DNA of 64,000 nt from Pseudofrankia saprophytica (lineage in GTDB: Bacteria > Actinomycetota > Actinomycetes > Frankiales > Frankiaceae): assembly GCF_000235425.2 (NCBI RefSeq), contig NZ_KI912266.1:1071886-1135885 (forward strand). Reading direction: 5' to 3'. Both the position numbers and the translations under genes were made by a program. How positions within the stretch are numbered: the stretch's first letter is position 1; every line of letters begins with the position of its first letter. Below the pieces are notes generated by a model that worked only from the letters and a program-made list of their open reading frames with translations, was not told where the DNA came from and made no database searches. Positions 18,247 to 48,000 of this stretch are shown one piece after another.

Positions 18247-18354
18247 GCCGTCCCCTTTCCGAGCGCCTGCCCACGGCCAACGACCGGCAGGACCGCCCAG
18301 TCGTCGAACCGCACGTAGGGCAACAACCTCAGTTTGCCGTTTGTTCCCCTATTG

Positions 18355-19296
18355 TTATCCAGGAGTTGGCAGCCAGGAGACGGATCCCGCCAACGCCACA
18401 TACCCGACGAACGCCACCGAATCGATCAGCGTGTGTGCCACGATCAGCGGCACTACTCGACCGCGTCGCTGGAAGATCCGGCCGAACAGCACGCCCATCG
18501 CGACGTTGCCGAAGAAGCCGCCGAGGCCCTGGTAGAGATGGTATGAGCCGCGCAGCAGGGCACTGGCGGCGAGCGAGCGCCGGTCGCCCCAGCCGAGCTC
18601 GCGCAGCCGGACCAGCAGGTATCCAGCGACGATGACCTCCTCGGTCACCGCGTTCTGCAGCGCGGAGGCCAGCAGCACCGGGATCCGCCACCACACGTCC
18701 GGCAGCCCCGAGGGCGCGACGGTCAGGTTCGCCCCGCTGTGCCAGGCCAGAAGGTAGAAGCCCAGGCCCGTACCGCCGACGGCGGCGGCGAGGGCTGCGC
18801 CGAACGCCAGGTCGCGGCCCGGGCGGCGGCGGTCCAGCCCGATCGCCCGGGCGCCGCCGCCATGGCGGACCAACAGGTGGATGGCCAGGAACGCCGGGAC
18901 GATGGCATTGAGCAGCCCGGCGAGCTGGAGCGCCAGGTCCAGCCACGGCCGGCCCGGCGCCGCGGACCCGTTGAGGAGCGCCACCTGGCCGCGGACCGGG
19001 CCGCTCGTCACCGACCCGATGTAGCGGATGAAGGCGAACAGCCCCGACATCCCGAGCGATACCCCGAGCAGCAGCCAGATCTCGACCACCAGCCCACGCC
19101 GACCGAGGGCCTCCTCACCGGCCGGGCCGGCCGGTGAGGCATCCGCGCGGTCGGTGCTGGTGTCGGCGTCGGTGCCGGTGACGATGGCCACGGCCCCGGG
19201 GGCATTCGTAACCGACGGAACCGACGGTGTGCCGGTAGCCACCGGTGCGCCCGCCCGAGGACGTATCCCTGGCCGCATTCCCGGACCGTAGCCCAC
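18355..19296 (-). CDS. CPBP family intramembrane glutamic endopeptidase
   Basis: 313 residues with about 8 hydrophobic segments. Conserved CPBP (Abi/CAAX protease) boxes appear near the C-terminus: EEVIVAGYLLVRLRELGWGD (the EE dyad), the His of GSYHLYQGLGGFFGN, and the final IVAHTLIDSVAF. The Ala/Gly/Thr-rich N-terminus (about 70 residues) is probably cytoplasmic. Family members process prenylated or other membrane peptides; substrate here unknown. Confidence 0.9.
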   Translation of the reverse strand: MGYGPGMRPGIRPRAGAPVATGTPSVPSVTNAPGAVAIVTGTDADTSTDRADASPAGPAGEEALGRRGLVVEIWLLLGVSLGMSGLFAFIRYIGSVTSGPVRGQVALLNGSAAPGRPWLDLALQLAGLLNAIVPAFLAIHLLVRHGGGARAIGLDRRRPGRDLAFGAALAAAVGGTGLGFYLLAWHSGANLTVAPSGLPDVWWRIPVLLASALQNAVTEEVIVAGYLLVRLRELGWGDRRSLAASALLRGSYHLYQGLGGFFGNVAMGVLFGRIFQRRGRVVPLIVAHTLIDSVAFVGYVALAGSVSWLPTPG

Positions 19297-27271: not shown

Positions 27272-27847
27272 TCAGCCCGCGGTGGCCTTGGCGGCAGCCT
27301 TCACGGCTTTTTTGAAATCGCGCACCTGGATACGGGTTTCAGCGTTGGTGATGTCAGCGACGGAGCGCAGACTGCCCTCCTCTCCGAAGGGCGCGCATGC
27401 CGCGCGCCATCCAGGCGGAGTAACGCCAAGCTGCTTACCGAGCAACGCGACGAAGATCTTCGTCTTCTGCTCACCGAAGCCAGGAAGCGCGCCGATCTGT
27501 CGAAGCAGATGTTTGCCGTCGGCCGCCGACGTCCAGACCGCCGCCGCGTTACCGTCGTACCTCTCGACGATCAGCTGACACAGCGCCTGTACCCGCTTGG
27601 CCATCGAGCCGGGAAACCGGTGTAGGGCGGGCTGCTGGGAGAAGACCGCCACCAGCTCGTCCGGGTCGAGGCCCGCGAGCTCGGCGACGTCGAGCGAACG
27701 CCCGAGCCGCTTCGTCAGCTCGTACGGCGCCGCGAACGCCCGCTCCAGCGGGATCTGCTGGTCGAGAACCATTCCGATCAGTAGCGCCAACGGGTCGTTC
27801 GTCAGCAGCTCGTCGGCCTCGTCGATCTGGCTCAGGTGCAGTCCCAC
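27272..27847 (-). CDS. HhH-GPD family base-excision DNA glycosylase
   Basis: 191 residues from GTG 27847. N-terminus VGLHLSQIDEADELLTNDP leads to ALLIGMVLDQQIPLERAF (the conserved LDQQ helix), then PYELTKRLG, and the helix-hairpin-helix LRQIGALPGFGEQKTKIFVA. The Lys-rich tail is ordinary. The family cuts damaged bases from DNA. The start is set by homology between this gene and five partial copies of its 5' end in this window (28418, 32414, 34838, 36529, 39941), all on the same strand. An upstream ATG at 27907 is in frame. Confidence 0.88.
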   Translation of the reverse strand: MGLHLSQIDEADELLTNDPLALLIGMVLDQQIPLERAFAAPYELTKRLGRSLDVAELAGLDPDELVAVFSQQPALHRFPGSMAKRVQALCQLIVERYDGNAAAVWTSAADGKHLLRQIGALPGFGEQKTKIFVALLGKQLGVTPPGWRAACAPFGEEGSLRSVADITNAETRIQVRDFKKAVKAAAKATAG

Positions 27848-27860
27848 GACGTCACCGTAG
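27755..27860 (-). repeat. Glycosylase 5'-end repeat, copy A (inside the intact gene)
   Basis: The segment of the intact HhH-GPD gene that recurs elsewhere: about 12 bp before GTG (CTACGGTGACGTC) and the first ~31 codons up to LDQQ. It is the only copy that continues into the rest of the gene. Confidence 0.85.
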
Positions 27861-27955
27861 CGGATGCACCGACGGGCAGCGTCACATCGCTGGCAGCCGT
27901 CTTCCATAGTTGGACGGGTGGCGGGCCCGGCCCCCGCCGCCGAGCTGGCACCGCG

Positions 27956-28138
27956 TCACCCCGGATCCCGGAGCTGGTCTTGCACGCAACTCCTGCACCG
28001 GCATTCTCCCCACTCGGCATCCTCCATGTCGTGAGGAGGGTAAGTTCCCTCGTCCAACACCTTGACCATGATCGCGTCTGCCCGCAGGTTGAGTTCGATC
28101 ATTGCATGCTCTTCGGGGGTGTGCTTGTACGGCTCCAT
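27956..28138 (-). CDS. Small cysteine-containing hypothetical protein (60 aa)
   Basis: ATG 28138 to TGA 27956. Reads MEPYKHTPEEHAMIELNLRA, then ADAIMVKVLDEGTYPP, ending with ECRCRSCVQDQLRDPG. The C.C..C cluster may bind metal. Composition is less GC-rich than neighbours and protein-like. It sits between glycosylase repeat copies A and B on the same strand. No family recognised. Confidence 0.5.
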   Translation of the reverse strand: MEPYKHTPEEHAMIELNLRADAIMVKVLDEGTYPPHDMEDAEWGECRCRSCVQDQLRDPG

Positions 28139-28417
28139 ACATTCATAGTGACTTCGGGGTCGCCGAAAAAGTCCAAAATCTGGAAAGATCCAGGTCGTCG
28201 CGGGTCCTGCCGGCACCGCGGGTGCCGCCGCTTAATGGCAGGCGACGAAAGCGCGGTCACAGTCACAACGGACAGCACAGGGCGTCGAGGAGAACTCCCC
28301 TGCATGGAATCCCATCGGTGCTGGGGGCCGTACACCGCCCGAGACCGAGGCGGACTCCACCCGCCCGTGAGGAAGCGTCCCGGCGGGGCGGACCATCCCA
28401 CTCCATCCTTCCGAAAC

Positions 28418-28522
28418 CTGCTGGTCCAGCACCATCCCGATCAAGAGCGCCAACGGGTCGTTGGTCAGCAGGTCGTCAGCCTCGTCGATCTGGCTCAGGT
28501 GAAGTCCCACGACCTCACCGTA
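28418..28522 (-). repeat. Glycosylase 5'-end repeat, copy B (truncated)
   Basis: GTG at 28510 opens a frame matching the glycosylase N-terminus (one E-to-D change, giving EADDLLTNDP) through LDQQ, after which homology stops and the frame reads unrelated sequence (VSEGWSGM). The upstream CGGTGAGGTC is also shared. Third-position differences from copy A are frequent. Confidence 0.85.
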
Positions 28523-28625
28523 TTCGACCGCGTCGCCGGGCCGTAGCCGCGGCACTCCAAGGCATTCGTGTAGCGGCGGGTGGAGCGGTAGGTCACCGCT
28601 GTAGGACCACTCGTCCCGGGCCCCG

Positions 28626-29276
28626 TCAGCCGCGTAGGTAGCTCAGGACGGCGAGCACCCGGCGGTGGCCGTCCTCGCTGGGCAGGTCGAGCTTGGTGAA
28701 GATGTTGCCGATGTGCTTGGCGACCGCGGCCTCGCTGACCAGGAGGATGCGGGCGATCGACGGGTTGGAGTGGCCTTCGGCCATCCGGGCGAGGACCTCG
28801 CGCTCTCGCGGCGTCAGCCGGTCGAGCGGGTTGGTGGCGCGCTGCCGGTTCAGGAGATGGCGGACCACCTCGGGGTCGATGACGGTCTCGCCGGCGGCGA
28901 CCCGTGCGACCGCGTCGGCGAAGTCGGCGACGGCGCCGACCCGGTCCTTGAGGAGGTAGCCGACGCCGGCCCGGCCGGTCGGTCCGAGCAGCTCCGCGGC
29001 GTAGGCGGTGGCGGCGTACTGGGAGAGCACCAGCACGGCCGCGCCGGGGTCGCGGGCGCGCAGGGCCACCGCGGCGCGCAGCCCCTCGTCGGTGAGCGTG
29101 GGAGGCATGCGCACGTCGGTGATGACCAGGTCGGGCCGGTGCTCACCAGCGACTCGCAGCAGCGCCTCGCCGTCGCCGACGGCATCCACCACCGTGTGGC
29201 CGAGGCCGTCCAGCAGGCTGACGAGGCCGGCGCGCATGAGTGTCGCGTCCTCGGCGAGCACTATCCGAAGTGACAT
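28626..29276 (-). CDS. LuxR/NarL-family response regulator
   Basis: 216 residues. Receiver: MSLRIVLAEDATLMRAGLVS, Asp in DLVITDVRMPP, Lys in YLLKDRVG. Output helix-turn-helix: LTPREREVLARMAEGHSNPS and VSEAAVAKHIGNIFTKLDL. Overlaps the kinase gene by 16 bp; last gene of a hydrolase-kinase-regulator operon. Confidence 0.95.
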   Translation of the reverse strand: MSLRIVLAEDATLMRAGLVSLLDGLGHTVVDAVGDGEALLRVAGEHRPDLVITDVRMPPTLTDEGLRAAVALRARDPGAAVLVLSQYAATAYAAELLGPTGRAGVGYLLKDRVGAVADFADAVARVAAGETVIDPEVVRHLLNRQRATNPLDRLTPREREVLARMAEGHSNPSIARILLVSEAAVAKHIGNIFTKLDLPSEDGHRRVLAVLSYLRG

Positions 29277-30511
29277 GGCAGCTCGATCCGCACCGTGGTG
29301 GGTCCTCCGCCCGGGCTGGTGATCTCCAGCGTGCCATCCATGACGGCGACCCGGTCGGCCAGGCCGCGCAGGCCACTGCCCCGCGCCGGGTCGGCTCCGC
29401 CCCGCCCGTCGTCGGTGACCGCCAGCAGCAGGCGCTCACCGCCGGCGGCCGCGCCGACCTGGATGCGCGTCGCCTCGGCGTGCCGGACCACGTTCGTCAG
29501 CGCCTCCGAGATGACGAAGTAGGCCGTCGACTCGACCGGCGCCGGCGGGCGCCCCGGCAGCGCGACGTCGACCTCGACCGGGATCGGGCAGCGCTCCGCG
29601 AGCTCCCGCACCGCCTCGGCCAGCCCGAAGTCGGTGAGCACCCGCGGGTGGATGCCGCGGATCTGTTCGCGGATCGCGGCGAGCGCCTGCCGGGCCTGGT
29701 CCTGAGCCTCGCTGACCAGGTCTCCGGCCCGCCCGGCGGTGCCGGCGAGCTCCACCTCGGCCAGGCCCAGGTTCATGGTCAGCAGCGTCAGATGCTGCTG
29801 CGCACCGTCGTGCAGGTCACGCTCGATGCGGCGCCGTTCGGCCTCGAAGGCGTTCACCAGCCGGCTGCGCGACTCAACGAGGTCGTCCACCTGCCGGCTG
29901 CGTTCCCTGCCGGAGGGCGCCAGCAGCAGCTGCGCGAGTTCCTGCTGCGCGCCGGCGAGGACGCCGAGGCCGTAGAGCGCAAGCACCGTCAACGGCAGGC
30001 CGCCCACCACGGCGACCAGCAATGACTGCCCGACGGTCTCGACCGACCACGCCCCGACCTGGACCATGACCACGTCCGCGCCGGCCGTCGCGACGACCAT
30101 CGGCAGGGCCAGCAGCAGGGCGCAGCCGAACAGCGCGAGCATCTCCCCCGCACCGGCGACGAGAAGCACGGACAGCAGGCAGGCGGCGTAGCCGAGCTCC
30201 CGCCACGTCGCGGCCTCGCCGAGCCGGCGCCGCACCCAGGCGAGTGTGCCCCCGGTGACGGGTGCGTGCGGGCTGCCGGGCGGCACCACGCCCATGAGGC
30301 GCAGCCGCTGGCGTTCGAGCGACCCGATCGGCAGCCCGGCCAGCGGGATCAGCGGGAAGACCAGCAACGACGGGAGCACCGCCGCCCAGGCCGCCAGGCT
30401 GACCGCCACGGTGCTGCCGACGTAGGCCAGGCTCCGCCACGGCCACCGGGACAGCAGGAAACGGTGCGGGCTGCCCGCCATCGCCCGCCACACGGAGGCG
30501 GCCACGTTCAT
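29261..30511 (-). CDS. Sensor histidine kinase (HisKA_3 type)
   Basis: 416 residues. Four or so N-terminal membrane helices in two pairs (residues about 25-60 and 105-190) form a small sensor region, then the phospho-acceptor helix ERRRIERDLHDGAQQHLTLL, the N box SEALTNVVRHAEA and G boxes DDGRGGADPARGSGLRGL. ATGA overlap with the upstream hydrolase stop and a 16-bp overlap with the regulator show strict coupling. Confidence 0.94.
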   Translation of the reverse strand: MNVAASVWRAMAGSPHRFLLSRWPWRSLAYVGSTVAVSLAAWAAVLPSLLVFPLIPLAGLPIGSLERQRLRLMGVVPPGSPHAPVTGGTLAWVRRRLGEAATWRELGYAACLLSVLLVAGAGEMLALFGCALLLALPMVVATAGADVVMVQVGAWSVETVGQSLLVAVVGGLPLTVLALYGLGVLAGAQQELAQLLLAPSGRERSRQVDDLVESRSRLVNAFEAERRRIERDLHDGAQQHLTLLTMNLGLAEVELAGTAGRAGDLVSEAQDQARQALAAIREQIRGIHPRVLTDFGLAEAVRELAERCPIPVEVDVALPGRPPAPVESTAYFVISEALTNVVRHAEATRIQVGAAAGGERLLLAVTDDGRGGADPARGSGLRGLADRVAVMDGTLEITSPGGGPTTVRIELPCHFG

Positions 30512-32019
30512 GAACCTATACCGCAGTTCACGTCGCGGTTCGGCAAAGCGCCGTCCACCAGATACCGGTTCACCGTGGTGTCGACGCAGGAATTGCCGGC
30601 GGCGATGTATTCGGTATGCGCGAAGCCGCCGCGCAACGTCAGCAGGCGCGAGCCCTTCAGCGCCCTGTGCATCGCGAGCTGTCCGGGATACGGCGCGACC
30701 GGGTCGCCGTCCGCGCCGACCATCAGCGCCGGCACGTCGTTGTCGATGGTCGTCGGCTTTTCCGCCGGCGCCACCGGCCAGAAGGCGCAGGGCGTGATGT
30801 TGTGGGTCAGCGGCCCGAACAGCGGCTCGTCGCCGCGGTGCGCTTCGATGGCGCGCAGATACGTACCGGGGTCACGGTCCACGGCCCGGTCGGCGCACAG
30901 CACGGCGGTCCCGGCCCGGTCGGCGGCGTATCCGGCGCCGGTGAGCAGCCCGGCAAGGAACGTGTCCAGCGCGGGGGTAGGCGTCGCCGGCTCGTCGCGG
31001 GCGGCGGCGGCGAGGATCTTCACCTGCCCGGCGAGCTCTCCGTAGCTGTCGTCGCTGTCATCGTAAAGATGGACGAACAGGAAGTACGGCACGACATGCT
31101 CGTCCAGCGCGTAGCTGCCGACTCGCAGGGGATGGCGCTGGCTCGCCTGGTTGACGCGGTCGACGGTGGCCAACACCGCGCCGGTGGTGCTGCCAAGGCC
31201 GTACTCGCCGTCGTGGCCGGCCGCCCAGGCCGCCCAGTGCGCGAGCGCGGCCTGCGCCGCCGGCGCGTCACGGGAGATGAGGTCGGGGCCATAGACGTCG
31301 GGATCGGGAGCGCTGTCGAGCACCACCCGGTCGGCGTGCGCGCCGAACATCTGCAGGTAGACGGCGCCGAGATAGGAGCCATAGGAGTAGCCGAGATAGG
31401 AGATCTTCTGCTCACCCAGGTCGCGCCGGATCAGGTCCATGTCGCGGGCGGTGTTCCTGGTCGAAGCGTGCGGAAGCAGGTCGAGGTTTCCCTGCGTGCA
31501 GCCGGCGGCAAGGTCCTTCGCCAGGGCCACGCTTTCGCCGTAGGAGCCGCGGTCCGGGCCGGCGGACCGCAGGAACGTGTCGGTCTTCCACCGGCACGCG
31601 ATCGGGCTGCTGCGACCTACGAACCGCGGGTCCATCCCGACGAGGTCGTAGCGCGCGGCGACATCCGGCATCTGCGCGCCGACGAGCGTCAGCTCCATGG
31701 CGCTGCCGCCCGGCCCGCCCGGGTCGAGCATCAGGACGCCGCGCCGGTGGGCCGGGTCGGTCGCCCTGACCCGGGCGAGCGCGACGCTGATCGTCCGGCC
31801 GTGCGGGCGGGCGTAGTCGACGGGGACGGTCACCTCGCCGCACCGGGCGCCCGCGGCGTCCAAGGCCTTGCCCAGGTCGTCGTCCGGTCCCGTGTGGCAG
31901 CCATGCCAATGGATGGCCTGAGGTCGGACGCTTTCCGGCGGCGAGCCGGTCGTCGCCGACACCGCCACAGCCGTCAGCACACCCGCCAGCGCGGTCGCGC
32001 CGATTCCATGAATTCCCAT
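30508..32019 (-). CDS. Secreted alpha/beta hydrolase, tripeptidyl-aminopeptidase-like
   Basis: 503 residues from ATG 32019. Short N-terminal export signal (MGIHGIGATALAGVLTAVAV, cleavage near SATTG). Oxyanion region LDPGGPGGSAME, nucleophile elbow ISYLGYSYGSYLGAVYL (Ser), acid in ADGDPVAPYPG, and His in GGFAHTEYIA; C-terminal TAP-type domain with paired cysteines (CVDTTVNRYLVDG...CG). Exoenzyme releasing peptides from protein N-termini is the family role. It is first in an operon with a two-component system, suggesting its product or cell-wall target is monitored. Confidence 0.9.
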   Translation of the reverse strand: MGIHGIGATALAGVLTAVAVSATTGSPPESVRPQAIHWHGCHTGPDDDLGKALDAAGARCGEVTVPVDYARPHGRTISVALARVRATDPAHRRGVLMLDPGGPGGSAMELTLVGAQMPDVAARYDLVGMDPRFVGRSSPIACRWKTDTFLRSAGPDRGSYGESVALAKDLAAGCTQGNLDLLPHASTRNTARDMDLIRRDLGEQKISYLGYSYGSYLGAVYLQMFGAHADRVVLDSAPDPDVYGPDLISRDAPAAQAALAHWAAWAAGHDGEYGLGSTTGAVLATVDRVNQASQRHPLRVGSYALDEHVVPYFLFVHLYDDSDDSYGELAGQVKILAAAARDEPATPTPALDTFLAGLLTGAGYAADRAGTAVLCADRAVDRDPGTYLRAIEAHRGDEPLFGPLTHNITPCAFWPVAPAEKPTTIDNDVPALMVGADGDPVAPYPGQLAMHRALKGSRLLTLRGGFAHTEYIAAGNSCVDTTVNRYLVDGALPNRDVNCGIGS

Positions 32020-32149
32020 GTGTCGACCGTAGAAATCACCGGCTCGGCGCGCGATGGCGCAAGCGTGAGTTCCGTCGGTAGGGCGCACCGGACCGGCGGG
32101 GTATGCCTGGCTATACCGTCCAAGGGTACCTGTTCAGTCCAGCGGCCAG

Positions 32150-32229
32150 CCGAGCTACGAGGAGCTCGCGCGTCTGGTCGCGGACCAGGCCGCCGCGATC
32201 GCGGAGCGGGACGCGGTGATCGCGGCGCC
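32150..32229 (+). pseudogene. N-terminal fragment of an IS66-like transposase
   Basis: In plus frame the sequence reads SYEELARLVADQAAAIAERD followed by AVIAA, the heptad-like coiled coil that starts IS66 transposases (normally SYEELA.LVAEQA..IAELEAE). It ends after about 27 codons; no catalytic part or inverted repeats are visible. Confidence 0.55.
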
Positions 32230-32284
32230 GAGACGATTGACGGCGGCGGGCTCTGGCCCGGGTTCACCGGCGCCACTTCGGCAC

Positions 32285-32371
32285 GCTTGCCCGCGGCGAC
32301 ACCGCCACCATTCCGACGACACCGCAAACCATAAGCCGAGCAATCGATGTGGTGATCGCCGGGCTGAGCGC
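32285..32371 (+). pseudogene. Fragment duplicating the C-terminus of a TetR regulator
   Basis: Plus frame reads TPQTISRAIDVVIAGLSA, almost the same as the last residues of the TetR gene ending at 39569 (APQTVSRAIEVVIAGLSA). Nucleotide match is strong over about 60 bp. The stop codon is lost (continues into CACAATATTG). It lies about 45 bp from repeat copy C, while the intact TetR gene precedes copy F. Confidence 0.75.
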
Positions 32372-32413
32372 ACAATATTGTGAAGCGCGGTTACAGCGAC
32401 ACGGTCACGATTT

Positions 32414-32541
32414 CGTTCCTTGTTTGTCCGATTTGCTGGTCCAGCACCATCCCGATCAACAGCGCCAACGGGTCGTTCGTCAGCAGCTCGTCGGCCTCGT
32501 CGATCTGGCTCAGGTGAAGTCCCACGCCAGTCACGGTAGCC
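32414..32541 (-). repeat. Glycosylase 5'-end repeat, copy C (truncated)
   Basis: GTG at 32525 opens a frame identical to the intact glycosylase over VGLHLSQIDEADELLTNDP and on to LDQQ, then diverges to IGQTRNEIV and stops. The 3' flank GGACAAACAAGGAACG is shared with copy E and nearly with F; the 5' flank GGCTACCGTGAC is shared with D, E and, less well, A. Confidence 0.88.
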
Positions 32542-32572
32542 GACCGCCTCACAACCGCCGCACGACTGTCGA

Positions 32573-33167
32573 TCAGGCCGCCGTGTAGTCGGTGTGATCC
32601 CGACAGCCTGCGTAGTCGTCGGCGTCCAGGTAGTGGCACCAGGGAAGCTGCGAGTCCGGGAAGCGGAGGCGACTGGTGCCCTTCCAGCTCGCGCCCTCCA
32701 CGTGACGACCAAGATCCTTAACGGTCTCCAACGCCGGTACGAGGTCTGTGTCGCGGCTGAACAGGACGCCGACGTCGTAGGCGCCCTCGCAAGCCAGACG
32801 CACGAGGTCCACGGCGAGGGCGACGTCGATGCCCTTCTCCTGCGCGGGCTCGGCAGGCCATGCCTTCGGGTAGCGGAGCTGTCGGCGGACGACCGCGACG
32901 CGCGACGCGCGGATCGCGGGACCAGCGGTCAGCCTGCCGGTCGCTGGCCCCCGCGGCCGCCGGCTGATGATCAGGGCTCGGGCGCCCGCGGTAGACGCGG
33001 ACGGCCGCAAGCTCACCCTCGAGTCGTCGCTCCCGGACGATCCGCTGCGCCACCCGCATGGGATCGACATGTCCATGTCGGCCAGGAGTGCCCGATGGCA
33101 AGAACGTGCTGCGAGCCGAGAGATGGACGTTTTGGTAGTCGATGAAGACGGTGACTCGTGGGGTCAT
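32573..33167 (-). pseudogene. NYN-domain nuclease gene broken by a 7-bp tandem duplication
   Basis: Frame 1 from ATG 33167 reads MTPRVTVFIDYQNVHLSARS (NYN/LabA-like Asp motif) to RDPRV; a second frame carries on VAVVRRQLRYPKAW, then ALAVDLVRLA, VLFSRDTDLVPALE (the acidic SRDSDL-type motif) and ends at 32573. The shift falls in CGCGACG-CGCGACG (32894-32907): removing one 7-mer restores an uninterrupted protein colinear with the intact paralogue at 47267-47863. It lies directly behind the terminator of the DksA-type gene. Confidence 0.88.
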
Positions 33168-33183
33168 GACGTAGCCGATCTAG

Positions 33184-33221
33184 AAAAAAAGCCCCGCCAG
33201 TGCCGGGCGATGGGGCGGGCG
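33184..33221 (-). terminator. Rho-independent terminator of the DksA-type gene
   Basis: Minus strand: CCCGCC...GGCGGGGC stem followed by seven T (33190-33184), starting right after the stop at 33222. A very similar terminator (48001-48035) precedes the NYN paralogue. Confidence 0.88.
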
Positions 33222-33593
33222 CTATGCGCACCGGACGCAGGTCCGCGCCGCCGGCCGGGCCTCCAGGCGGCCCGCCCCGACCGGCTGACCGCATACGGTG
33301 CACGTCCCGTAGGTACCGGCGGCCAAGCGAGCGAACGCCACGTCGATCTCCTCCGCCTCGCCCGCCGCCTGGCGCAGTGTCGCCCTCAGCTGCTCACGCT
33401 CGAACGGCATCGACGCCCCCTCGATGTCGTGCTCGTCGTCCGCGCCAACGTCGGCGGAGTCCTCGAGGAACCGGGCGAACTCGAGCCGGAGCGCCTTCAG
33501 CCGTTCCGCCACGCGAGCCCGCTCAACCACGAGCCGCTCGAACGCGGCAGATCCGGAGGTGGACGGCCCAGGCGTGGAGAGCCCGGACGACAT
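33222..33593 (-). CDS. TraR/DksA family C4 zinc-finger protein
   Basis: 123 residues from ATG 33593. A coiled-coil region (VVERARVAERLKALRLEFAR) with acidic tip EDSADVGADDEHDIEG, then the zinc finger CTVCGQPVGAGRLEARPAARTCVRC, one residue group from the C-terminus. Family members act at the RNA polymerase secondary channel; actinobacterial ones are often small stand-alone proteins. Followed by a strong terminator. Confidence 0.9.
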   Translation of the reverse strand: MSSGLSTPGPSTSGSAAFERLVVERARVAERLKALRLEFARFLEDSADVGADDEHDIEGASMPFEREQLRATLRQAAGEAEEIDVAFARLAAGTYGTCTVCGQPVGAGRLEARPAARTCVRCA

Positions 33594-34035
33594 GGCCCTA
33601 TCGAACCACGTGTGCGCGAGCCGCGGGAGCGCCCGACGACCGCCGAGGGTCGGGCCAACCTGACGCTGTACCGCAAGTGGAGGCGACATCGCCGAGCATC
33701 GACAGCTCACCGCCGAGTCCGCGCCGCTCGACGGTCCTCCGCGCCACGCGCGCAGCGTCGCCGCCCTGGACCGGCGACGGGTCCAGCCGGGCGATGCCCA
33801 CCTGCCGCTCGTAAGGGAAGTGTGGATAAGGAGCGGTGCGGCCGCTGGCCGCGTCCAGCCGTGCCCGCTGGGCCACGGTCAGGCCCGCCCGCCGCGCTCT
33901 CGCTCGCGGCGGCCGGCTGTGGGCCGCGGCGTCCAGGGACAGCCGCGGAACACGGCGTCGCATTTCTGCCAGCACTCGTTGGAATGACTGCTTTATGTTT
34001 GGAGAAAGACCTCGGACACGACAACGGAGACAAGG
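33594..34035. other. Intergenic region, no gene seen
   Basis: Arg/Ala-rich frames on both strands without recognisable motifs. A ribosome site (GGAGACAAGG) at the right end serves the SDR gene. Confidence 0.5.
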
Positions 34036-34773
34036 TTGCCAAGCATTGCGCTCATCACCGGAGGAAACCGCGGCCTGGGATTTTCGGCGGCCAAGGCCCT
34101 GGCTCGGTCCGGTGCCGTCGTCATTATCGGCGCACGCGGCGAAGCCGCCGCACGCAAAGCCATTGAGATACTGGAAGATGAGGGGCTCACCGCGGACTGG
34201 GTTGAGCTCGATGTTACCAGCCCAGAGAGTGTGCGAGCCGCCGCGAAGATCATCCGGGAACGTTACCGCCGACTCGACGTGCTGGTAAACAACGCGGGCA
34301 TCCTACCCGAGGCGACGGATATCGTGGAGCACGAGTTCGCCGACACGAACATCTTCCGCCAAACGTTCGAGACCAATACGTTTGGGCCGGTCACCGTGAC
34401 GGAGGTTTTTCTGCCGCTGCTACGCGAGAGCGTCGCTGGTCGGATCGTCAACGTCTCGTCGACCATGGGCTCGCTCACCGACCAGAACAACCCTCTTTCG
34501 CCGTACTACTCGATGCTCCTGCCGGCGTACCGAAGCTCGAAGGCCGCCCTGAACAGCATCGCCGTCGAGCTGGCGAAAAGCCTGAAGGGCACCCCGATCA
34601 AGGTCACGTCAGTGTGTCCCGGCTTCGTTCAGACGGATTTGACACCGATCAACAGACAGCAGGCGCCATTGACCGCCGACGAAGCGGCGCAGATCGTGGT
34701 CACGGCCGCGATGCTGCCCGCCGACGCGGAATCAGGAACCTTCATCGACGCCAACGGCCCGGTGACCTGGTAA
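34036..34773 (+). CDS. Short-chain dehydrogenase/reductase
   Basis: 245 residues from TTG 34036, with GGAGACAAGG close upstream. Cofactor motif ALITGGNRGLGFSAAKALA, NNAG in LVNNAGIL, catalytic Ser in NVSSTMGSL and YxxxK as YRSSK (Tyr/Lys). C-terminal VCPGFVQTDLTP is typical. GC content and codon use are visibly lower than the core genes, suggesting recent acquisition. Substrate unknown. Confidence 0.92.
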   Translation: MPSIALITGGNRGLGFSAAKALARSGAVVIIGARGEAAARKAIEILEDEGLTADWVELDVTSPESVRAAAKIIRERYRRLDVLVNNAGILPEATDIVEHEFADTNIFRQTFETNTFGPVTVTEVFLPLLRESVAGRIVNVSSTMGSLTDQNNPLSPYYSMLLPAYRSSKAALNSIAVELAKSLKGTPIKVTSVCPGFVQTDLTPINRQQAPLTADEAAQIVVTAAMLPADAESGTFIDANGPVTW

Positions 34774-34837
34774 CCACGCCGGAGACCATGCCAGTCGCGG
34801 AGAGGCAGCGCCACCGCTCTGCCTTTCCGCGATGCGC

Positions 34838-34898
34838 CGCTTCAGCACCATCCCGATCAACAACGCCGTCACAGCGGCGCTCGCCATCACCGTAGCCG
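34838..34898 (-). repeat. Glycosylase 5'-end repeat, copy D (internally deleted)
   Basis: Keeps the 5' flank GGCTACGGTGATGG and the piece encoding ALLIGMVL, but codons for about the first 18 residues are missing and LDQQ has become LKRR. Same orientation as all other copies. Most decayed copy in the window. Confidence 0.65.
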
Positions 34899-35324
34899 GA
34901 CACGCCACGACCATCCCTACACCGGTCAGGTTCCGATGTGACAGGTGGCCGGACCCGCACGGCGTACCTAGCCTCGACCTTGCCGCCGGCGAGCCTGGCG
35001 ACGGCGACGCCGATGGCCGTGCTCCGCGAGAGAGTCTGGGTCCGGGTGCCGGTTAGGGCGCCCCCTGGCCGTCGACCTGTGCCGAGGCTCGGTGCGCCGC
35101 GACCCAGGTCCTAGAGCAGCCGCAGCGCGCGACTGTGAAGTCGCCGAGGCCGTTCCTGGGCTAAGCTGGGGGCAGGGCGTGATCCACGCCTGACCTCGGA
35201 GGGTCGTCCCAGCGCGACCACGGTGAGAGGCAAAGGGGCTCAGGCCTCGGATCGTCGTCATAGGTCCGCTCGTCTCGAACGTCGACGGCCGCTGGGTGCT
35301 CGACGTCGGGACGCGGGAGAGCCG
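34899..35324. other. Intergenic region upstream of the nitrilase-fold gene
   Basis: One in-frame piece (PRIVVIGPLVSNVDGRWVLD, about 35235-35300) looks protein-like, but has no start of its own and is in a different frame from the next gene. Possibly the remnant of another gene. Otherwise nothing seen. Confidence 0.35.
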
Positions 35325-36305
35325 ATGACGGCGAACAAGGCGTTCAAGCAGCGCGTGCGCGAACGAGCGCGCAGGACGGGCGAGTCCTACACGGCCGCGC
35401 TTCGGCACTTCCGCCAGCCCTCCGAGGGAACCACCATGCCGAACACCAATCCCTTCCGAATCTCGGTCGCCCAGCTCGACGCGCCGACGGATCCGCGTGA
35501 TGCCGAAGCGTTTCAACGGGTGGGCCACGACGTACGTCGTCTGATGACCGAGGCCCGCGATCAAGGCGCTCGCCTCATTCATTTCTGCGAGGGAGCACTC
35601 TGCTCGCCAAATAAGCGGATCCTGTCCAGCGATCCGACCACCATGGCCGACGCCGACTGGAGCCGCTTCGACTGGGCGGCCCAGCGCGGCCAGCTTGAGG
35701 CGATCAGGAAACACGCCGCGGCATTGCGGCTGTGGACAGTCGTCGGAGCCGTGCACCGACTCACCGAGCCACATCGTCCACACAACAGCCTTTACGTGAT
35801 CGACGACCACGGCCATATCATCACCCGCTACGACGAACGGATGCTGTCCAACACCAAGGTCAGCTATTTGTACACACCCGGCATCAGTCCGATCACCTTC
35901 GACGTCGACGAGGTGCGGTTCGGGTGCGCGCTCGGCATGGAAAGCGTGTATCCGGAGCTGTTCGCCGAGTACGAGCGAGCCGACGTTCACTGCGTGTTGC
36001 TTTCCACCATGGACAATGGCACCACCTTCGGCCTGCAGACACAGGCGCATGCCAGCACCAACAGCTACTGGATCAGCTATGCCACGGTCGCCGTCGACGC
36101 GGCCGCCGCGCCGTCCGGAATCGCTGGGCCTGACGGTCACTGGGCGACCCGATGCGGACCGCACGCCACCTCGGCCATCGCCACCGTCGATATCGACCGC
36201 GAACATGAAAGCCTCGCGCGCCCCTGGCGCCGAACGGCCCGCGCCGGCAGGTACGCAACCGCGGTCGTCGACGACGATCCTCGAGCACAACGAAGCTCGC
36301 TCTAA
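35325..36305 (+). CDS. Nitrilase-superfamily protein with substituted catalytic residues
   Basis: 326 residues from ATG 35325. N-terminal extension (residues 1-40, KAFKQRVRERARRTGESYTA) is a short motif found on various actinobacterial proteins. The nitrilase fold starts FRISVAQLDAPTDP. Glu89 (LIHFCEGALCS) matches the general base, but the usual Lys position (normally Y-[RD]-K) is RYDERML with Glu171, and the nucleophile position in RFGCALGMESVYPE is Gly204 (GGC; TGC expected). Alignment is by eye. If right, it is a non-catalytic member. It sits between repeat copies D and E. Confidence 0.8.
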   Translation: MTANKAFKQRVRERARRTGESYTAALRHFRQPSEGTTMPNTNPFRISVAQLDAPTDPRDAEAFQRVGHDVRRLMTEARDQGARLIHFCEGALCSPNKRILSSDPTTMADADWSRFDWAAQRGQLEAIRKHAAALRLWTVVGAVHRLTEPHRPHNSLYVIDDHGHIITRYDERMLSNTKVSYLYTPGISPITFDVDEVRFGCALGMESVYPELFAEYERADVHCVLLSTMDNGTTFGLQTQAHASTNSYWISYATVAVDAAAAPSGIAGPDGHWATRCGPHATSAIATVDIDREHESLARPWRRTARAGRYATAVVDDDPRAQRSSL

Positions 36306-36327
36306 CACGAAGGTCTCGACGGGCGTG

Positions 36328-36364
36328 CCCGAAGCGTTTCGCCCATCCCGGGTAGACGCTTCGG
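36328..36364 (+). terminator. Hairpin after the nitrilase-fold gene
   Basis: Arms CCCGAAGCGT (36328-36337) and ACGCTTCGGG (36355-36364), 17-nt loop, 23 bp after the stop. No T-run. Confidence 0.55.
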
Positions 36365-36528
36365 GCGGGCGGCGCCGCCGCGGTGCGTGCCCTGACGCAC
36401 CGGCGGCATCCTCCGCGCAGCCAGACGAAAGGCGAGGTCGCAGAAGCCCGTCGGCGAGTCCGGCCGTACTCCGGGCGCCGCCACGTTTCATTGTCGCCGA
36501 TGCACGGATCGGGAGACGAGGCCCCAGC

Positions 36529-36655
36529 CGTTCCTTGTTTGTCCGACTTGCCGGTCGAGAACCATGCCGATCAGCAGCGCGAGCGGGTCATTGGTCAGCA
36601 GTTCGTCCGCCGCGTCGTTCTGGCTCAGGTGAAGTCCCACGTGAGTACGGTAGCC
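36529..36655 (-). repeat. Glycosylase 5'-end repeat, copy E (truncated)
   Basis: GTG at 36640 opens VGLHLSQNDAADELLTNDP and continues to LDRQ, then VGQTRNGWG. Flanks GGCTACCGTACTCAC (5') and GGACAAACAAGGAACGG (3') match copy C. Compared with C, most changes in the coding part fall at third codon positions. Confidence 0.87.
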
Positions 36656-36924
36656 GGCCCTTGCGCGGCGGTCGCCTCGCCGCTGGCCAGATCACGGTGT
36701 TGTCGGTCAGCCACGTCCGTGAAAGGGCCACAGCAGGCCGCGACGGTGTCCGTCATCCGCCTTTCCCGCCGAGGACGGCCGCGGGCTGACGTGTGGCTGC
36801 TACATTTGCGCATGGCCGCTACTGGCGCGGGTGGATGACCACCGGGGAACGGCCGGAAGACCGTCGACGCCGACCGCCTGGGCCCGCGACGCGCAGATGA
36901 CTCCGCGCGACGTGAGGACGGCCG
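36656..36924. other. Upstream region of the AICAR formyltransferase gene
   Basis: No gene seen on either strand. No clear promoter motif is recognisable. Confidence 0.4.
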
Positions 36925-38070
36925 ATGGACCTGCGGTATGGCATGAACCCCCACCAGCAGCCGGCGACGGCCAACCCGGTCGACGACGCCAGCCCGCCGG
37001 TGCGGGTCCTGCACGGCCAGCCTTCCTACATCAACATGCTGGACGCGTTGGAGGCCTGGCAACTCGTCAGGGAGGCGGCCGATGCCCTGGGCCGGCCCGC
37101 GGCCGCCTCCTTCAAACATCTCTCACCCGCCGGTGCCGCACTCGCCGGGCCGCTCGACGAGACGATGACCGAGACCTACGGGCTCGGCGCGTCGCCGGTG
37201 GGGATGTTGACGAGCGCCTACGTGCGGGCCCGCGACACTGACCCGAAAAGCTCCTACGGCGACTTCGCCGCGGTTTCCGCCCCGGTCGACGCGGAGCTGG
37301 CCGTACTGCTGCGCCGACTGGTCTGCGACGGAATCGTCGCGCCCGGTTATGAGCCCGGGACCGTGGCGACCCTGTCCGCGAAGAAGAACGGCACGTTCCT
37401 GGTCCTGGAAGCCGACCCTGCCCACCGGCCGCCCGCCCGAGAGATCCGTGAGGTGCACGGGATGCGCTTCACCCAGACCTGGGACGACGCCGTGCCCAAC
37501 CGGCAGACGCTGGCTGATGTCCGCGTCGGCACGGTGCCCGACCACGCCCTCGACGACCTGCTCCTTGGCCTGATCGTGGCCCGTCACACGCAGTCGAACT
37601 CGGTCGCCTACGTCCGAGGCGGGATGACGCTTGGCGTCGGCGCGGGCCAACAATCCCGGGTGGACTGCGTCCGCCTCGCCGGAGCGAAATCCGACACCTG
37701 GTGGCTACGCCGCCACCCCCGCGTCCGAGCGCTGCACATCGGCCAGAACCCGAAGATCCAAGATAGCATCAACGACGAGATTCAGTACCTCGACACTGGC
37801 GCCGCCGGTTCCGGCCTCCCACCCAGGCCTGGAGGGGCCCCGCCGTTGACCGCCCTGGAGCGCGCCCAGTGGCTGAGCCGGCTCGACGAGGTCAGCCTAG
37901 CTTCCGATGGCGCTCTGCCCTTCCCGGAAAACATCGTTCACGCCCGCCGTCACGGGGTGCGCTACGTGGCCGAACCCGGCGGATCAATCCGCTCCGCGGA
38001 GGTCATCGCCGCCTGTCACGATCAGGAGGTCGCCCTCGTCCACACCGGACTGCGCCTGTTCCGACACTGA
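36925..38070 (+). CDS. Stand-alone AICAR formyltransferase (PurH C-terminal domain homologue)
   Basis: 381 residues from ATG 36925. Opens MDLRYGMNPHQQPATANP (PurH-type RYGxNPHQ), catalytic Lys-His in AASFKHLSPAGAA, then CDGIVAPGYEPG, ARHTQSNSVAYVRGGMTLGV, AGAKSDTWWLRRHP and a C-terminal PFPENIVHARRHGVRYVAEPGGSIR. The N-terminal IMP cyclohydrolase (MGS-like) domain of bifunctional PurH is absent. It should make FAICAR from AICAR and 10-formyl-THF. A free-standing version in an accessory region may serve a pathway other than de novo purine synthesis. Confidence 0.9.
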   Translation: MDLRYGMNPHQQPATANPVDDASPPVRVLHGQPSYINMLDALEAWQLVREAADALGRPAAASFKHLSPAGAALAGPLDETMTETYGLGASPVGMLTSAYVRARDTDPKSSYGDFAAVSAPVDAELAVLLRRLVCDGIVAPGYEPGTVATLSAKKNGTFLVLEADPAHRPPAREIREVHGMRFTQTWDDAVPNRQTLADVRVGTVPDHALDDLLLGLIVARHTQSNSVAYVRGGMTLGVGAGQQSRVDCVRLAGAKSDTWWLRRHPRVRALHIGQNPKIQDSINDEIQYLDTGAAGSGLPPRPGGAPPLTALERAQWLSRLDEVSLASDGALPFPENIVHARRHGVRYVAEPGGSIRSAEVIAACHDQEVALVHTGLRLFRH

Positions 38071-38099
38071 CGTTCTTTCGGTTTCCTCCAGCACCGAGT

Positions 38100-38933
38100 T
38101 CATGTCCCGACGGGACCGGTGCGAGCGCCCCACAGTTCCGCGATCCGTCCGTCGGCGACACGGATGACTTCGATGAGTTCTCCAGTGTTGTCGGTCAGCC
38201 GGGAGCGGATCATGGCGCGGTCGTCCTCGGCGACCAGGTCAACGACCTCCGTGCGCAGATCCGGTGCGGCTGTGCGCATGGCGAGCCACCGTTCCTTGAC
38301 CATGCCGGGTCCACGGGACTGGAGCGGGTGACTGTAGAAGTCAGCGGTGAAGATCTCGTCGACCGCCGGTAGGTCGAGCGCGTTGAACGCCGCGTGCATG
38401 CGATGCGCCAGGCCCCGACTTGTCTGGGCCTTCGTCGGCCCGGCGGGTGCGCGGCCGGTGTCGTCCACGAGCGCCCGCGCCAGCGGCTCCAGCCGGCCGA
38501 AGGCTCGGGCCAGGCCGATGTGGTCGGCATAGTCGCGGGATTCGACGATCTGCCCGTCACGGACACGGACCACGAACACGCACGGCAGGGCGAACTCGCC
38601 GCGGTCGGCCATCCCGGTGTAGGTGAACTCCACGACGACCACCTCCGGATCCGCCGTCCGATGCACGGCCATCTCCGTCGGTGCGAACGACCGAACACCG
38701 GCTACTCGCCCGGCTGACCCGGCGAAGTGCTGGCGCAGCTCGGCACGAGTACGCAGCGGTTGATCACCCAACGGCGCAAACGGGTGCCGGACGTCGGTCC
38801 GCTCCCCGTACAGGCCGGCGAGCGCGTCGAGCTGACGCTCCCGCTCGTCCGGTGCGAGATCACCAGAAACCAGCCGGCTCACGCCGGCGGTGACCATGCG
38901 AACGATGTCGGCCGGGGCAGGTGTCGGTACCAT
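38100..38933 (-). CDS. SnoaL-like/nuclear transport factor 2-like protein (two tandem domains)
   Basis: 277 residues from ATG 38933. Two NTF2-like halves: the first (about 1-140) with RTDVRHPFAPLGDQPLRTRAEL and VVVVEFTYTGMADRGEFALP; the second (about 165-277) with RMHAAFNALDLPAVDEIFTA and YSHPLQSRGPGMVKERWLAM. Such domains act as small hydrolases or isomerases or bind ligands. Divergent from a TetR gene with a large dyad between them, so it is the probable regulated gene. Confidence 0.8.
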   Translation of the reverse strand: MVPTPAPADIVRMVTAGVSRLVSGDLAPDERERQLDALAGLYGERTDVRHPFAPLGDQPLRTRAELRQHFAGSAGRVAGVRSFAPTEMAVHRTADPEVVVVEFTYTGMADRGEFALPCVFVVRVRDGQIVESRDYADHIGLARAFGRLEPLARALVDDTGRAPAGPTKAQTSRGLAHRMHAAFNALDLPAVDEIFTADFYSHPLQSRGPGMVKERWLAMRTAAPDLRTEVVDLVAEDDRAMIRSRLTDNTGELIEVIRVADGRIAELWGARTGPVGT

Positions 38934-38942
38934 CGAGCCTCC

Positions 38943-38990
38943 AAACGAAGTCGCGACTCCGCCAACAGTAGCGGAGTCTGGACTTCGTTT
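38943..38990. promoter_or_regulatory. Operator: 20-bp inverted repeat between SnoaL-like and TetR genes
   Basis: Arms AAACGAAGTCGCGACTCCGC (38943-38962) and GCGGAGTCTGGACTTCGTTT (38971-38990) match at 18 of 20 positions around CAACAGTA. It sits 9 bp before the SnoaL-like ATG and 30 bp before the TetR start, ideal for repression of both. Confidence 0.85.
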
Positions 38991-39020
38991 ACAAGGGCGG
39001 CAGGGCCGGACCGGAGGTAG

Positions 39021-39569
39021 GTGAGAGCCGTGCGGAAGAACGCCGTCGCCAACCGCGAGCGCATCCTGGCCGCCGCCGAAGCGGTGTTCGGCGAGCACGG
39101 CGCGGCCGGCTCCACCGAGGACGTCGCACGCCGCGCCGAGGTCGGCATCGCGACCGTGTTCCGCCATTTCCCCACGAAGGCCGCGCTGGTGGAGGCGGCC
39201 CTGGTCCGCCACTTCGATCTGCTCAACGAGCGGGCATCCACCCTGGCTGCCCAATCCGACCCCGGACAGGCCTTCCGAGACCTGCTGCGAACCATGGTCG
39301 AGGGCGGGTCGACGAAGTTGACGCTCGCGTCCCAGATGCCGGATGGACAGTTCCCACCGAGCGTCCGCCAAGGGGCGGACAAGCTGCGCGCGACCGTCGA
39401 GGACCTCTTGGACCGCGCGGCGCGGTCAGGGGCGATCCGCCGGGACGTCGGGGCCGACGAGGTCTATCTCCTGGTCCGTGGACTCGCCCAGGCATCCGCC
39501 ACCACGCCGACCGCACCGCAAACCGTAAGCCGAGCCATCGAGGTGGTGATTGCTGGATTGAGCGCGTGA
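39021..39569 (+). CDS. TetR/AcrR family transcriptional regulator
   Basis: 182 residues from GTG 39021. Helix-turn-helix: NRERILAAAEAVFGEHGAAG, then DVARRAEVGIATVFRHFPTK. The ligand domain is short, ending SRAIEVVIAGLSA. Its last ~28 codons are duplicated as a fragment at 32285-32371. Divergent to the SnoaL-like gene with a strong dyad between. Confidence 0.94.
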   Translation: MRAVRKNAVANRERILAAAEAVFGEHGAAGSTEDVARRAEVGIATVFRHFPTKAALVEAALVRHFDLLNERASTLAAQSDPGQAFRDLLRTMVEGGSTKLTLASQMPDGQFPPSVRQGADKLRATVEDLLDRAARSGAIRRDVGADEVYLLVRGLAQASATTPTAPQTVSRAIEVVIAGLSA

Positions 39570-39728
39570 GGGGCCGTCCATCGTCAACGCCGCGCCGGCA
39601 ACAGGCGCGGGAACTGGCTGCACCGCACCGTGGACTGGCCGGCCAACCACGCGACACCTCACGCCGTCGACCGGTCAGCTCGGTGATTGGTCGGTCAGAA
39701 GCCGGCACATGACCACGCCAGTGCGCAG

Positions 39729-39903
39729 CTACGACTTGACCGTCAGGTTTTTCCGCCCGACTCTGCACACCGGAGGCGGTGTCCATGCCCCGCGCAGAAC
39801 GGTTGCGTCGGGTCCGTAGAGCCGCATCGTGACGCCCAGCGGGCCAGGTTGAGCCGGCAACCAGTTCGATTCCCGGTCGGATCCCGGACTGACATGCTGA
39901 AGT
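39729..39903 (-). pseudogene. C-terminal fragment of a DUF1214 (DUF1254-type) protein
   Basis: Minus frame from 39903 to TAG 39731-39729 reads ESNWLPAQPGPLGVTMRLYG then PDATVLRGAWTPPPV. The pattern NWLPAP.G.....RLYGP...VL.G.W.PP.V is the end of DUF1214 domains. The upstream part is missing; repeat copy F begins about 40 bp away. Confidence 0.7.
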
Positions 39904-39940
39904 CCGCCTCTGTCATGGCGTTCACCGATTACCCACCCGC

Positions 39941-40065
39941 CGATCCTTGTTTACCGAATCCACTGGTCCAGCACCATCCCGACCAGGAGCGCCAGCGGGT
40001 CGTTCGTCAGCAGCTCATCCGCCGCGTCGATCCGGCTCAGATGCGGTCCCACGTCGCCACGCTAG
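39941..40065 (-). repeat. Glycosylase 5'-end repeat, copy F (truncated)
   Basis: GTG at 40052 opens VGPHLSRIDAADELLTNDP and continues LVGMVLDQW, then stops (TAA) within the flank TAAACAAGGATCG, which aligns with the C/E flank GACAAACAAGGAACG. 5' flank CTAGCGTGGCGAC is a weaker match. Adjacent to the DUF1214 fragment. Confidence 0.83.
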
Positions 40066-47266: not shown

Positions 47267-47863
47267 TCATGGGGCCGTGTAGTCGGTGTCGTCGCGACAG
47301 GCCTCGTAGTCCTCGGCGCTAAGATAGTGACACCAGGGCAGCTGCGAGTCCGGAAAGCGCAGTCGGCTGGAGCCCTTCCAGGTTGCCACTTCAACATGCG
47401 TCTTGCCGGCCTCAAGGTCGCGAACGGCCTCCAACGCGGGAATCAAGTCGCTGTCTCGGCTGAAGAGGATCCCTACGTCGTAGTCGTCGGTGCATGCCAA
47501 CCGCACGAAATCCACGGCCAGCGCGACGTCGATTCCTTTCTCCTGCGCAGGGTCTACCGGCCATCCCTTCGGGTACCGAAGCTGTCGGCGAATGACGGTC
47601 ACCCGCGGATCACGACCCCAGTGACTCGCCTGACGGTCACCGGCTCGTGCTGCGCCGGGCTGGTGATCGGGGCTTGGACGGCCTCGGTACACCCGGATGG
47701 CCGTAAGATCGCCCTTGAACTTCCGTCTGGCGGCTATTCGCTCAGCGAGCCGTACCGGATCGACATGACCGTGCCAAGGCACTACGTCCGCAGCCAGGAA
47801 GACTTTTCGCGCGGAAGAATGCACGTTCTGGTAGTCGATGAAGATCGCAATACGTGGGGTCAT
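47267..47863 (-). CDS. NYN domain (PIN-like/LabA-type) nuclease, intact paralogue
   Basis: 198 residues from ATG 47863. Metal-binding acidic sites: IAIFIDYQNVHSSARKVFLA (Asp10), KGIDVALAVDFVRLACTDDY, and VGILFSRDSDLIPALEAV. C-terminal STRLRFPDSQLPWCHYL-type end (SRLRFPDSQLPWCHYLSAED). Likely acts on RNA. The broken gene at 32573-33167 is a close paralogue; both follow near-identical terminators. Confidence 0.9.
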   Translation of the reverse strand: MTPRIAIFIDYQNVHSSARKVFLAADVVPWHGHVDPVRLAERIAARRKFKGDLTAIRVYRGRPSPDHQPGAARAGDRQASHWGRDPRVTVIRRQLRYPKGWPVDPAQEKGIDVALAVDFVRLACTDDYDVGILFSRDSDLIPALEAVRDLEAGKTHVEVATWKGSSRLRFPDSQLPWCHYLSAEDYEACRDDTDYTAP

Positions 47864-48000
47864 GACGCCTCGATAGAGAACGGCGTCGGAACGGAGCCAG
47901 CCCGGAACCTGCCGGTTCGAGTTGATCAGATTGGGTTCTTAGAACCGTAGCCGATGGGAAACAATGCGTCAAACCCGAATATACGGAAGTCTCTCCAAAG

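Follow-up and report, generated by a model that had tools for sequence, protein, structure and literature searches.

Cassettes of the staphylococcal cassette chromosome (SCC) are moved by serine recombinases and stack, with direct repeats between them, at the 3' end of one gene that remains usable, rlmH; some carry no recombinase of their own. Chromosomal islands also occur at the 5' end of mutL, a repair gene. In two reports, the serine integrase of mycobacteriophage Bxz2 uses a bacterial attachment site (attB) inside the M. smegmatis gene Msmeg_5156, whose putative product is a DNA glycosylase, and only a 4-bp core is common to attB and the phage site, attP (PMC9262239, PMC2884959). The Enterococcus Cassette Chromosome is an enterococcal example of a cassette chromosome (PMC6222049), and integrases also target the 5' end of dusA (PMC4482086). 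Here we describe a locus of Pseudofrankia saprophytica, in a 64,000-nucleotide stretch of contig NZ_KI912266.1 (the window), in which an intact HhH-GPD DNA glycosylase gene is preceded by five displaced copies of its own 5' end. We read these copies as the scars of repeated site-specific cassette integration at the dinucleotide GA of codon 29, likely by a large serine recombinase, and put the probability of this reading at roughly 0.77.

The intact gene, which would serve as the docking gene, occupies 27272..27847 on the minus strand, starts with GTG at 27847 and matches PF00730 with 31.7 bits (cut-off 26.2). Orthologues were found in 79 of 118 genomes of the class. A hexamer, TACGGT, lies 6 nucleotides (nt) 5' of the GTG (27854..27859, minus strand) and by its sequence presumably acts as the promoter of the glycosylase; hexamer and start codon are still present in many displaced copies. 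The attB-like target within the gene spans 27742..27785 (minus strand), with the putative crossover dinucleotide GA at 27763-27762, and in the consensus gene a CGGGAT-type motif flanks this GA on either side.

All five displaced copies lie upstream of the glycosylase gene and on its strand. The initial annotation had reported such co-oriented copies by inspection, and a profile search confirmed the gene and five copies, one of them decayed. Copies B (28391..28522, core G 28426), C (32406..32534, core G 32441), E (36521..36652, core G 36556) and F (39936..40064, core G 39968), all on the minus strand, score 124-134 bits with a profile built from these four and the gene. They appear as hybrid sites: the promoter-like hexamer is followed by gene sequence as far as GA at codon 29, where the sequence switches to what we call an arm. 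Copy B has an arm of class Y (TCGGAAAGATGGAG-like), and C, E and, approximately, F have one of class X (GGACAAACAAGGAACG). The 3' flank previously ascribed to C, E and F in common is arm X and does not extend to B. Homology had been said to end just after an LDQQ motif; the end is indeed near it, and gene-like sequence stops precisely at the GA in codon 29, which specifies the Asp of LDQQ, with ~5 nt beyond GA alike in gene and arms. Upstream, homology had been given as ~12 bp, and several copies show weak similarity reaching further. Copy D (34815..34867, minus strand; 19.9 bits, E = 2e-4) is regarded as a decayed hybrid site because an 823-bp stretch shared with genome G006 at 92.6% contains a better preserved counterpart there (18303-18415, 90.4 bits). 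When copy C was compared with the 9.98-Mb genome, six places matched at E <= 1.7e-4, all at this locus, and the next match (E = 1.1e-3) covered 34 nt.

To determine the distribution of the repeat, we searched 58 genomes including that of P. saprophytica itself, 35 from Frankiaceae (Frankia, Pseudofrankia, Parafrankia and Protofrankia) and 23 from elsewhere. Among the Frankiaceae, 28 genomes had 2-12 matches (the gene being counted and a few sites being split into two pieces), five had one, in one case a 28-nt stretch, and two had none. Outside the family, six genomes matched only at the gene, one matched by a 23-nt stretch and 16 had no match. Among 246 genomes of the class, the repeat was detected at E <= 1e-20 in 20, every one from the same family, and 19 named loci of the orthologous gene outside Frankiaceae gave exactly one profile match each, at the gene. 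Related arrays are present in most of the Frankia-family genomes examined. Copy C had no DNA match in phage or plasmid collections.

Stretches from 31 of the 34 family relatives (all but G010, G013 and G033) were compared. In all there are 107 sites of at least 75 bits with a placeable core, 30 in intact genes and 77 displaced. Arm Y follows 46 of the displaced copies and arm X 19; one has both motifs and 11 have neither. On gene-bearing contigs, 75 sites of at least 28 bits lie upstream of the intact gene (one of them on the opposite strand) and six downstream. A second class of sequence consists of gene 3' remnants that lack a start. Their first nucleotides are again the GA of codon 29, and in most cases the arms precede it in reverse-complemented form. 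On gene-bearing contigs, all 14 remnants that start at the core are found on the downstream side of the intact gene. Among 18 such remnants, hand-picked and omitting short arm-plus-gene pieces (G028:20927, G019:3047, G028 contig 758:9267), 14 had a reverse-complemented consensus arm immediately in front of GA, with 18-24 of 28 positions matching; one had 16 matches and three had 7-9. Note that only three of 20,000 random 28-mers reached 17-19 matches, the best 19. A ribbon-helix-helix gene stands immediately before the left arm at 7 of the 12 places found.

Complete arm-GA-arm sites were found in three genomes (G029, G019 and G015). With two arm classes, they form long, imperfect inverted repeats around the central dinucleotide, as is characteristic of the attP of large serine recombinases. 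The gene, the gene-arm hybrid and the arm-gene hybrid share the GA core, and outside this core the target in the gene is unlike the arm-GA-arm sites. An intact gene, an arm-GA-arm site and two hybrids make up the layout expected of serine-integrase attB, attP, attL and attR. Judged by their sequences, the arm-GA-arm sites are of the serine-integrase attP type and the displaced copies are hybrid, attL-like sites. Complete attP-like sites of both classes are located in the chromosome, at L145 (G029:5017415-5017474) and L164 (G019 C213:48017-48070). A hybrid site of G012 (L175, C1:5045805-5045931) lies 4.4 Mb from the gene of that genome (L146, 618096), near the coordinate of the gene in G029; a chromosomal rearrangement may have split the array. 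G025 contains a second, partial glycosylase with a 5' end downstream of its intact gene (L144, G025:67319-67646).

Site-specific joining predicts that genomes sharing a cassette are alike up to GA and different beyond it. A 2.28-kb cassette, 98.8% identical in G028 (Frankia sp. AgKG'84/4) and G030 (F. tisae), sits between different 5' and different 3' gene halves, with both joints at GA. On the left side the site bodies are 0.78/0.85 alike, equal to the background of unrelated sites (0.80/0.87). On the right side, similarity per 25-nt window is 0.84-1.00 before GA and falls to 0.56-0.92 in the gene 3' halves. The two intact genes therefore have near-identical first parts and different second parts. 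The same agreement up to GA followed by divergence was observed at G028:23761/G020:48265, G031:102814/G019:50832 and G032:28997/G023:34806, and the 5' part of copy C with ~0.25 kb upstream is common to the intact gene of G029 (QA3), apart from one weak stretch (0.60). Across the 30 intact genes, third-position divergence was 0.244 before GA versus 0.40-0.44 per 81-nt window after it, and divergence before GA was the smaller in 395 of 435 gene pairs. The G028/G030 cassette (L166:2550-4359; L142, G028:21842-23462) contains two frames without a Pfam match at 0.001, the longer of which presumably has a Fic-like motif, recognised by eye.

The DNA between sites is also shared among genomes. There are 68 intervals between consecutive well-placed sites (90, of 0.3-24 kb, when weak sites are included), and 52 of the 68 share at least 400 bp at 75% identity or more with another genome. 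In half of these (26 of 52) the match ends no more than 130 bp from the core in both genomes, and two cassettes are shared whole. Of all 738 match ends, 129 are no more than 130 bp away from a core, a zone that makes up 2.7% of the sequence. The orientation of shared cargo relative to the site is kept in 365 of 369 matches, reciprocal ones counted.

We next consider the candidate enzyme. The array of G016, which we take to be CcI3, contains three serine recombinase genes, each directly before a glycosylase 5' end: within ~45-70 bp there is a hairpin-like stretch, beyond which comes the glycosylase 5' end, divergent in sequence and attached to arm X. One recombinase has 506 amino acids (aa) and matches PF00239 and PF07508 above the cut-off and the zinc ribbon below it; the other two are partial. 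In G015 the same arrangement follows an internally deleted relative, the gene start here comprising 49 codons and leading into a complete attP, and small serine recombinase fragments are present in G002 and G032. Among the matches listed for ten genomes, the only serine resolvase-domain matches at arrays are those of G016. The G016 recombinase has relatives in 205 phage records, all below 60% identity. Its relatives outside arrays, in the loci compared, are not followed by a glycosylase 5' end.

Hybrid structure, palindromic arms, polarity, joints at GA, chimeric genes and sharing between species are read directly from the sequences. A mechanism to match would comprise an enzyme able to act in trans, a circular intermediate and a route by which the gene is restored. 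Each cassette would end in its own promoter and the first 28 glycosylase codons. After integration, the resident 3' part would be read in frame behind the new 5' end, and the old 5' end would be displaced upstream and sealed to the arm of the element. With each further insertion, another displaced gene start and more cargo would join the pile upstream of the single intact gene. Where an element had a palindromic attP, the reciprocal product, a left arm joined to the gene 3' part, may in some cases also have been left downstream of the gene. As for the enzyme, a large serine recombinase is the most likely candidate; some elements would encode it, and cassettes that have none of their own would be served in trans. 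Two routes can be envisaged: a cassette circle bearing a hybrid site may integrate directly, or a complete element carrying the gene may insert, followed by homologous deletion. The initial annotation had offered, among other options, that cassette-like insertions beside a fixed site had left scars; this is the option our data support, with the fixed site located inside the gene. Its alternative of a mobile repeat unit is not borne out, as the repeat itself appears to be the attachment site that separates mobile cassettes.

The second route, stated as a full explanation, holds that complete palindromic-attP elements carrying a whole glycosylase gene or an N-terminal minigene insert, and that the duplicated 3' parts then recombine by homology, removing the remainder and leaving a seamless gene with a new 5' and an old 3' part. 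We regard this as a serious contender that falls somewhat short of an even chance. It uses the textbook reaction, and nested insertion into an element-borne gene predicts the downstream position of the arm-3' remnants, which was found in 14 of 14; in addition, G034 has two 3' remnants behind its intact gene, and the 49-codon gene start of G015 runs into a complete attP. However, in most arrays upstream sites are numerous and downstream remnants scarce or absent, and in the one clean gene-gene pair the switch occurs exactly at GA, without a visible 3' stretch from the element. Homologous recombination alone, in which circles or transferred fragments would recombine through the 110-bp gene-start repeat without any site-specific enzyme, is improbable in our view. 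The length of the repeat would suffice for weak exchange, and one pair (G014/G030) differs from ~100 bp before GA onwards, but crossovers would then be expected across the repeat, whereas the other clean pairs change at GA from both sides; the arms and the inverted repeat at the 3' remnants would also go unexplained.

Tandem duplication of the glycosylase gene at this locus, with subsequent decay, can hardly account for the array. It had been proposed that a set confined to this locus, with full-length genes at each site in relatives, would reduce the copies to ordinary duplication; the set is indeed only local in this genome, but the relatives hold arrays of truncated sites rather than full genes at each site. 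Moreover, the closest relative of a site body lies only in another genome for 93 of 107 bodies and only in the same genome for 9, which, together with the recurrent arms and the shared cargo in different contexts, contradicts this explanation. The hybrid sites, the joints at GA, the shared cassettes and the arrays of relatives likewise uphold the earlier view that this is not simple gene decay. A further possibility is that the displaced copies are retained by selection, as promoters for cargo or for a short peptide, the latter having been suggested in the form of truncated paralogues. The hexamer and start codon kept in many copies would fit, as would the many synonymous differences already remarked on: 316 of 584 changed codons (54%) are synonymous in 69 of the 77 displaced copies (eight being dropped as indel-bearing or too divergent), where random single changes would give 26%. 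Yet constraint is weaker than in the 30 intact genes, where 146 of 210 codons differing from the consensus are synonymous (70%). Eight of the 77 displaced copies have a stop in the 30 codons before the core and others are frameshifted, and cargo frames, picked by a G+C rule, face both ways (129 in the direction of the site, 146 opposite). We consider selected retention very unlikely. The synonymous bias arises because the displaced copies were once functional gene starts, and on the best reading they decay after displacement.

Several observations weigh against cassette integration by a large serine recombinase, the reading that we prefer. Among the arrays compared, serine recombinase genes adjoin sites in two only (G016 and G015), and the PF00239 match of the G016 enzyme spans only profile positions 49-143. 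The window contains no serine recombinase; its genome has four serine recombinase matches elsewhere and no G016-like recombinase at E <= 1e-30. A tyrosine recombinase (PF00589) was found at one array, that of G020, among the matches listed for ten genomes. Circles would carry a hybrid site, and recombination of an attL-like site with attB is not a textbook serine-integrase reaction. As regards the sites, an arm could not be recognised in 11 of the 77 displaced copies, two of which continue into gene sequence, nor in three of the 18 gene 3' remnants, and six sites are positioned downstream of the gene. The cassette at G014:320142/G030:7025 is 93.7% identical, yet the flanking bodies differ from ~100 bp before GA. 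Constant cargo orientation could partly reflect vertical inheritance. Finally, 5'-3' distance correlations among intact genes are 0.07-0.21 and correlations within the 3' part 0.10-0.56, which makes this a weak test.

The five intervals of the window differ in content. Interval 1 (27860..28390), the 0.5 kb from the gene to copy B, contains a small frame that gave no Pfam match when tested. Interval 2 (28523..32405) encodes a response regulator, a histidine kinase and a TAP-like hydrolase, and interval 3 (32535..34814) an NYN-domain protein, a DksA/TraR-type protein and a short-chain dehydrogenase; the dehydrogenase stretch is also present in G006 (92.6%) and G005 (88.8%). Interval 4 (34868..36520), with a carbon-nitrogen hydrolase, has a counterpart just upstream of the glycosylase gene in G001 (92.7%) and another on the downstream side of that gene in G005 (92.9%). 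Interval 5 (36653..39935) contains a ZTP riboswitch, an AICARFT-domain gene, a SnoaL-like protein and a TetR regulator. The riboswitch (42.2 bits, cut-off 39) lies immediately 5' of the AICARFT/IMPCHase-domain gene (36808-38070, plus strand), and the two, both inside one cassette interval, may travel together. The Rfam scan detected a signal recognition particle (SRP) RNA, tRNA and this riboswitch, and nothing more. A 70-nt repeat of the TetR gene end (39496-39565) recurs with 84% identity at 32302-32371, shortly before copy C; the remainder of the gene is missing at that place, which would fit truncation of a TetR cassette. Two places in the window, 32582-33206 and 47276-47867, match one NYN-gene region of G002 (75% and 73%), and there is therefore an NYN paralogue outside the described array.

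Cargo was further sampled with 148 proteins, one each for 148 of the 157 clusters of 248 frames; this sample excludes window frames, frames above 700 aa and frames of low third-position G+C. It matched 154 Pfam families, with TetR_N the commonest (10) among the best 25 of the 154, and ranges over regulators, hydrolases, dehydrogenases and other proteins. A defence-island interpretation was rejected in view of this breadth and of the small number of defence models (13 from PADLOC) among the 148 proteins.

How does the locus compare with described systems? As in the Bxz2 case, an apparent serine-integrase attB lies within the coding sequence of an actinobacterial DNA glycosylase gene; unlike here, Bxz2 is a phage with a single site, and the accessible parts of its reports describe no array of displaced gene starts. 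Peaches, a phage that we take to be related to Bxz2, was rejected as a match: its attP region has no recognisable counterpart here and the recombinase similarity is weak (E = 2e-5). The array is SCC-like in its stacked cassettes, its direct repeats, the apparent restoration of one target gene, the likely use of serine recombinases and the presence of cassettes without a recombinase of their own. It differs from SCC in that the target is codon 29 of an HhH-GPD gene rather than the 3' end of rlmH, that the glycosylase 5' end would be exchanged together with its promoter, that cassettes are often 0.3-5 kb and that the host family is different. It resembles integrons as an array of small cassettes with recombination sites in one orientation and cargo without a recombinase. 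Unlike integrons, the arrays have no tied tyrosine integrase: among the matches listed, PF00589 was found at the G020 array and not in the window, no IntI-specific model being included. Folding of the attC kind was also considered and rejected, as z values for copies C and E on both strands (-0.11 to 0.91) and for the gene (-1.04, -1.56) showed nothing beyond shuffles.

What the dusA and mutL cases have in common with the locus is an integration site close to the 5' end of a protein-coding gene, which for mutL is likewise a repair gene. We know of no case at either gene in which displaced gene starts form stacked arrays common to several genera. The word glycosylase does not occur in the main text, as available, of a report on actinobacterial conjugative elements that includes Frankia (PMC3218068). 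We found no published account of such an array in a limited search that did not cover most subscription journals, so that its absence from print is not shown. On the best reading, the array is a variant of known site-specific integration systems rather than a wholly new kind.

A broader interpretation, which we hold tentatively and at odds leaning against it, is that the arrays represent a Frankiaceae-wide serine-recombinase counterpart of the integron, in which small cassettes of mainly metabolic and regulatory genes, lacking a recombinase, would cross species via one docking gene. The attachment site of each would include the promoter and first 28 codons of a DNA repair gene, and each capture would thereby replace the front end of that gene and renew the docking site. 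If so, a single locus would explain part of the metabolic gene exchange among Frankiaceae, and the stack of sites would be a readable record of captures. The Frankiaceae are hard to manipulate, and the locus would provide this family with a defined target site and two classes of arm. It would also allow one to ask whether cassette traffic of the integron kind can be sustained by serine recombinases. Mobile DNA would then repeatedly rewrite the start of a DNA repair gene in these bacteria and leave the gene unbroken.

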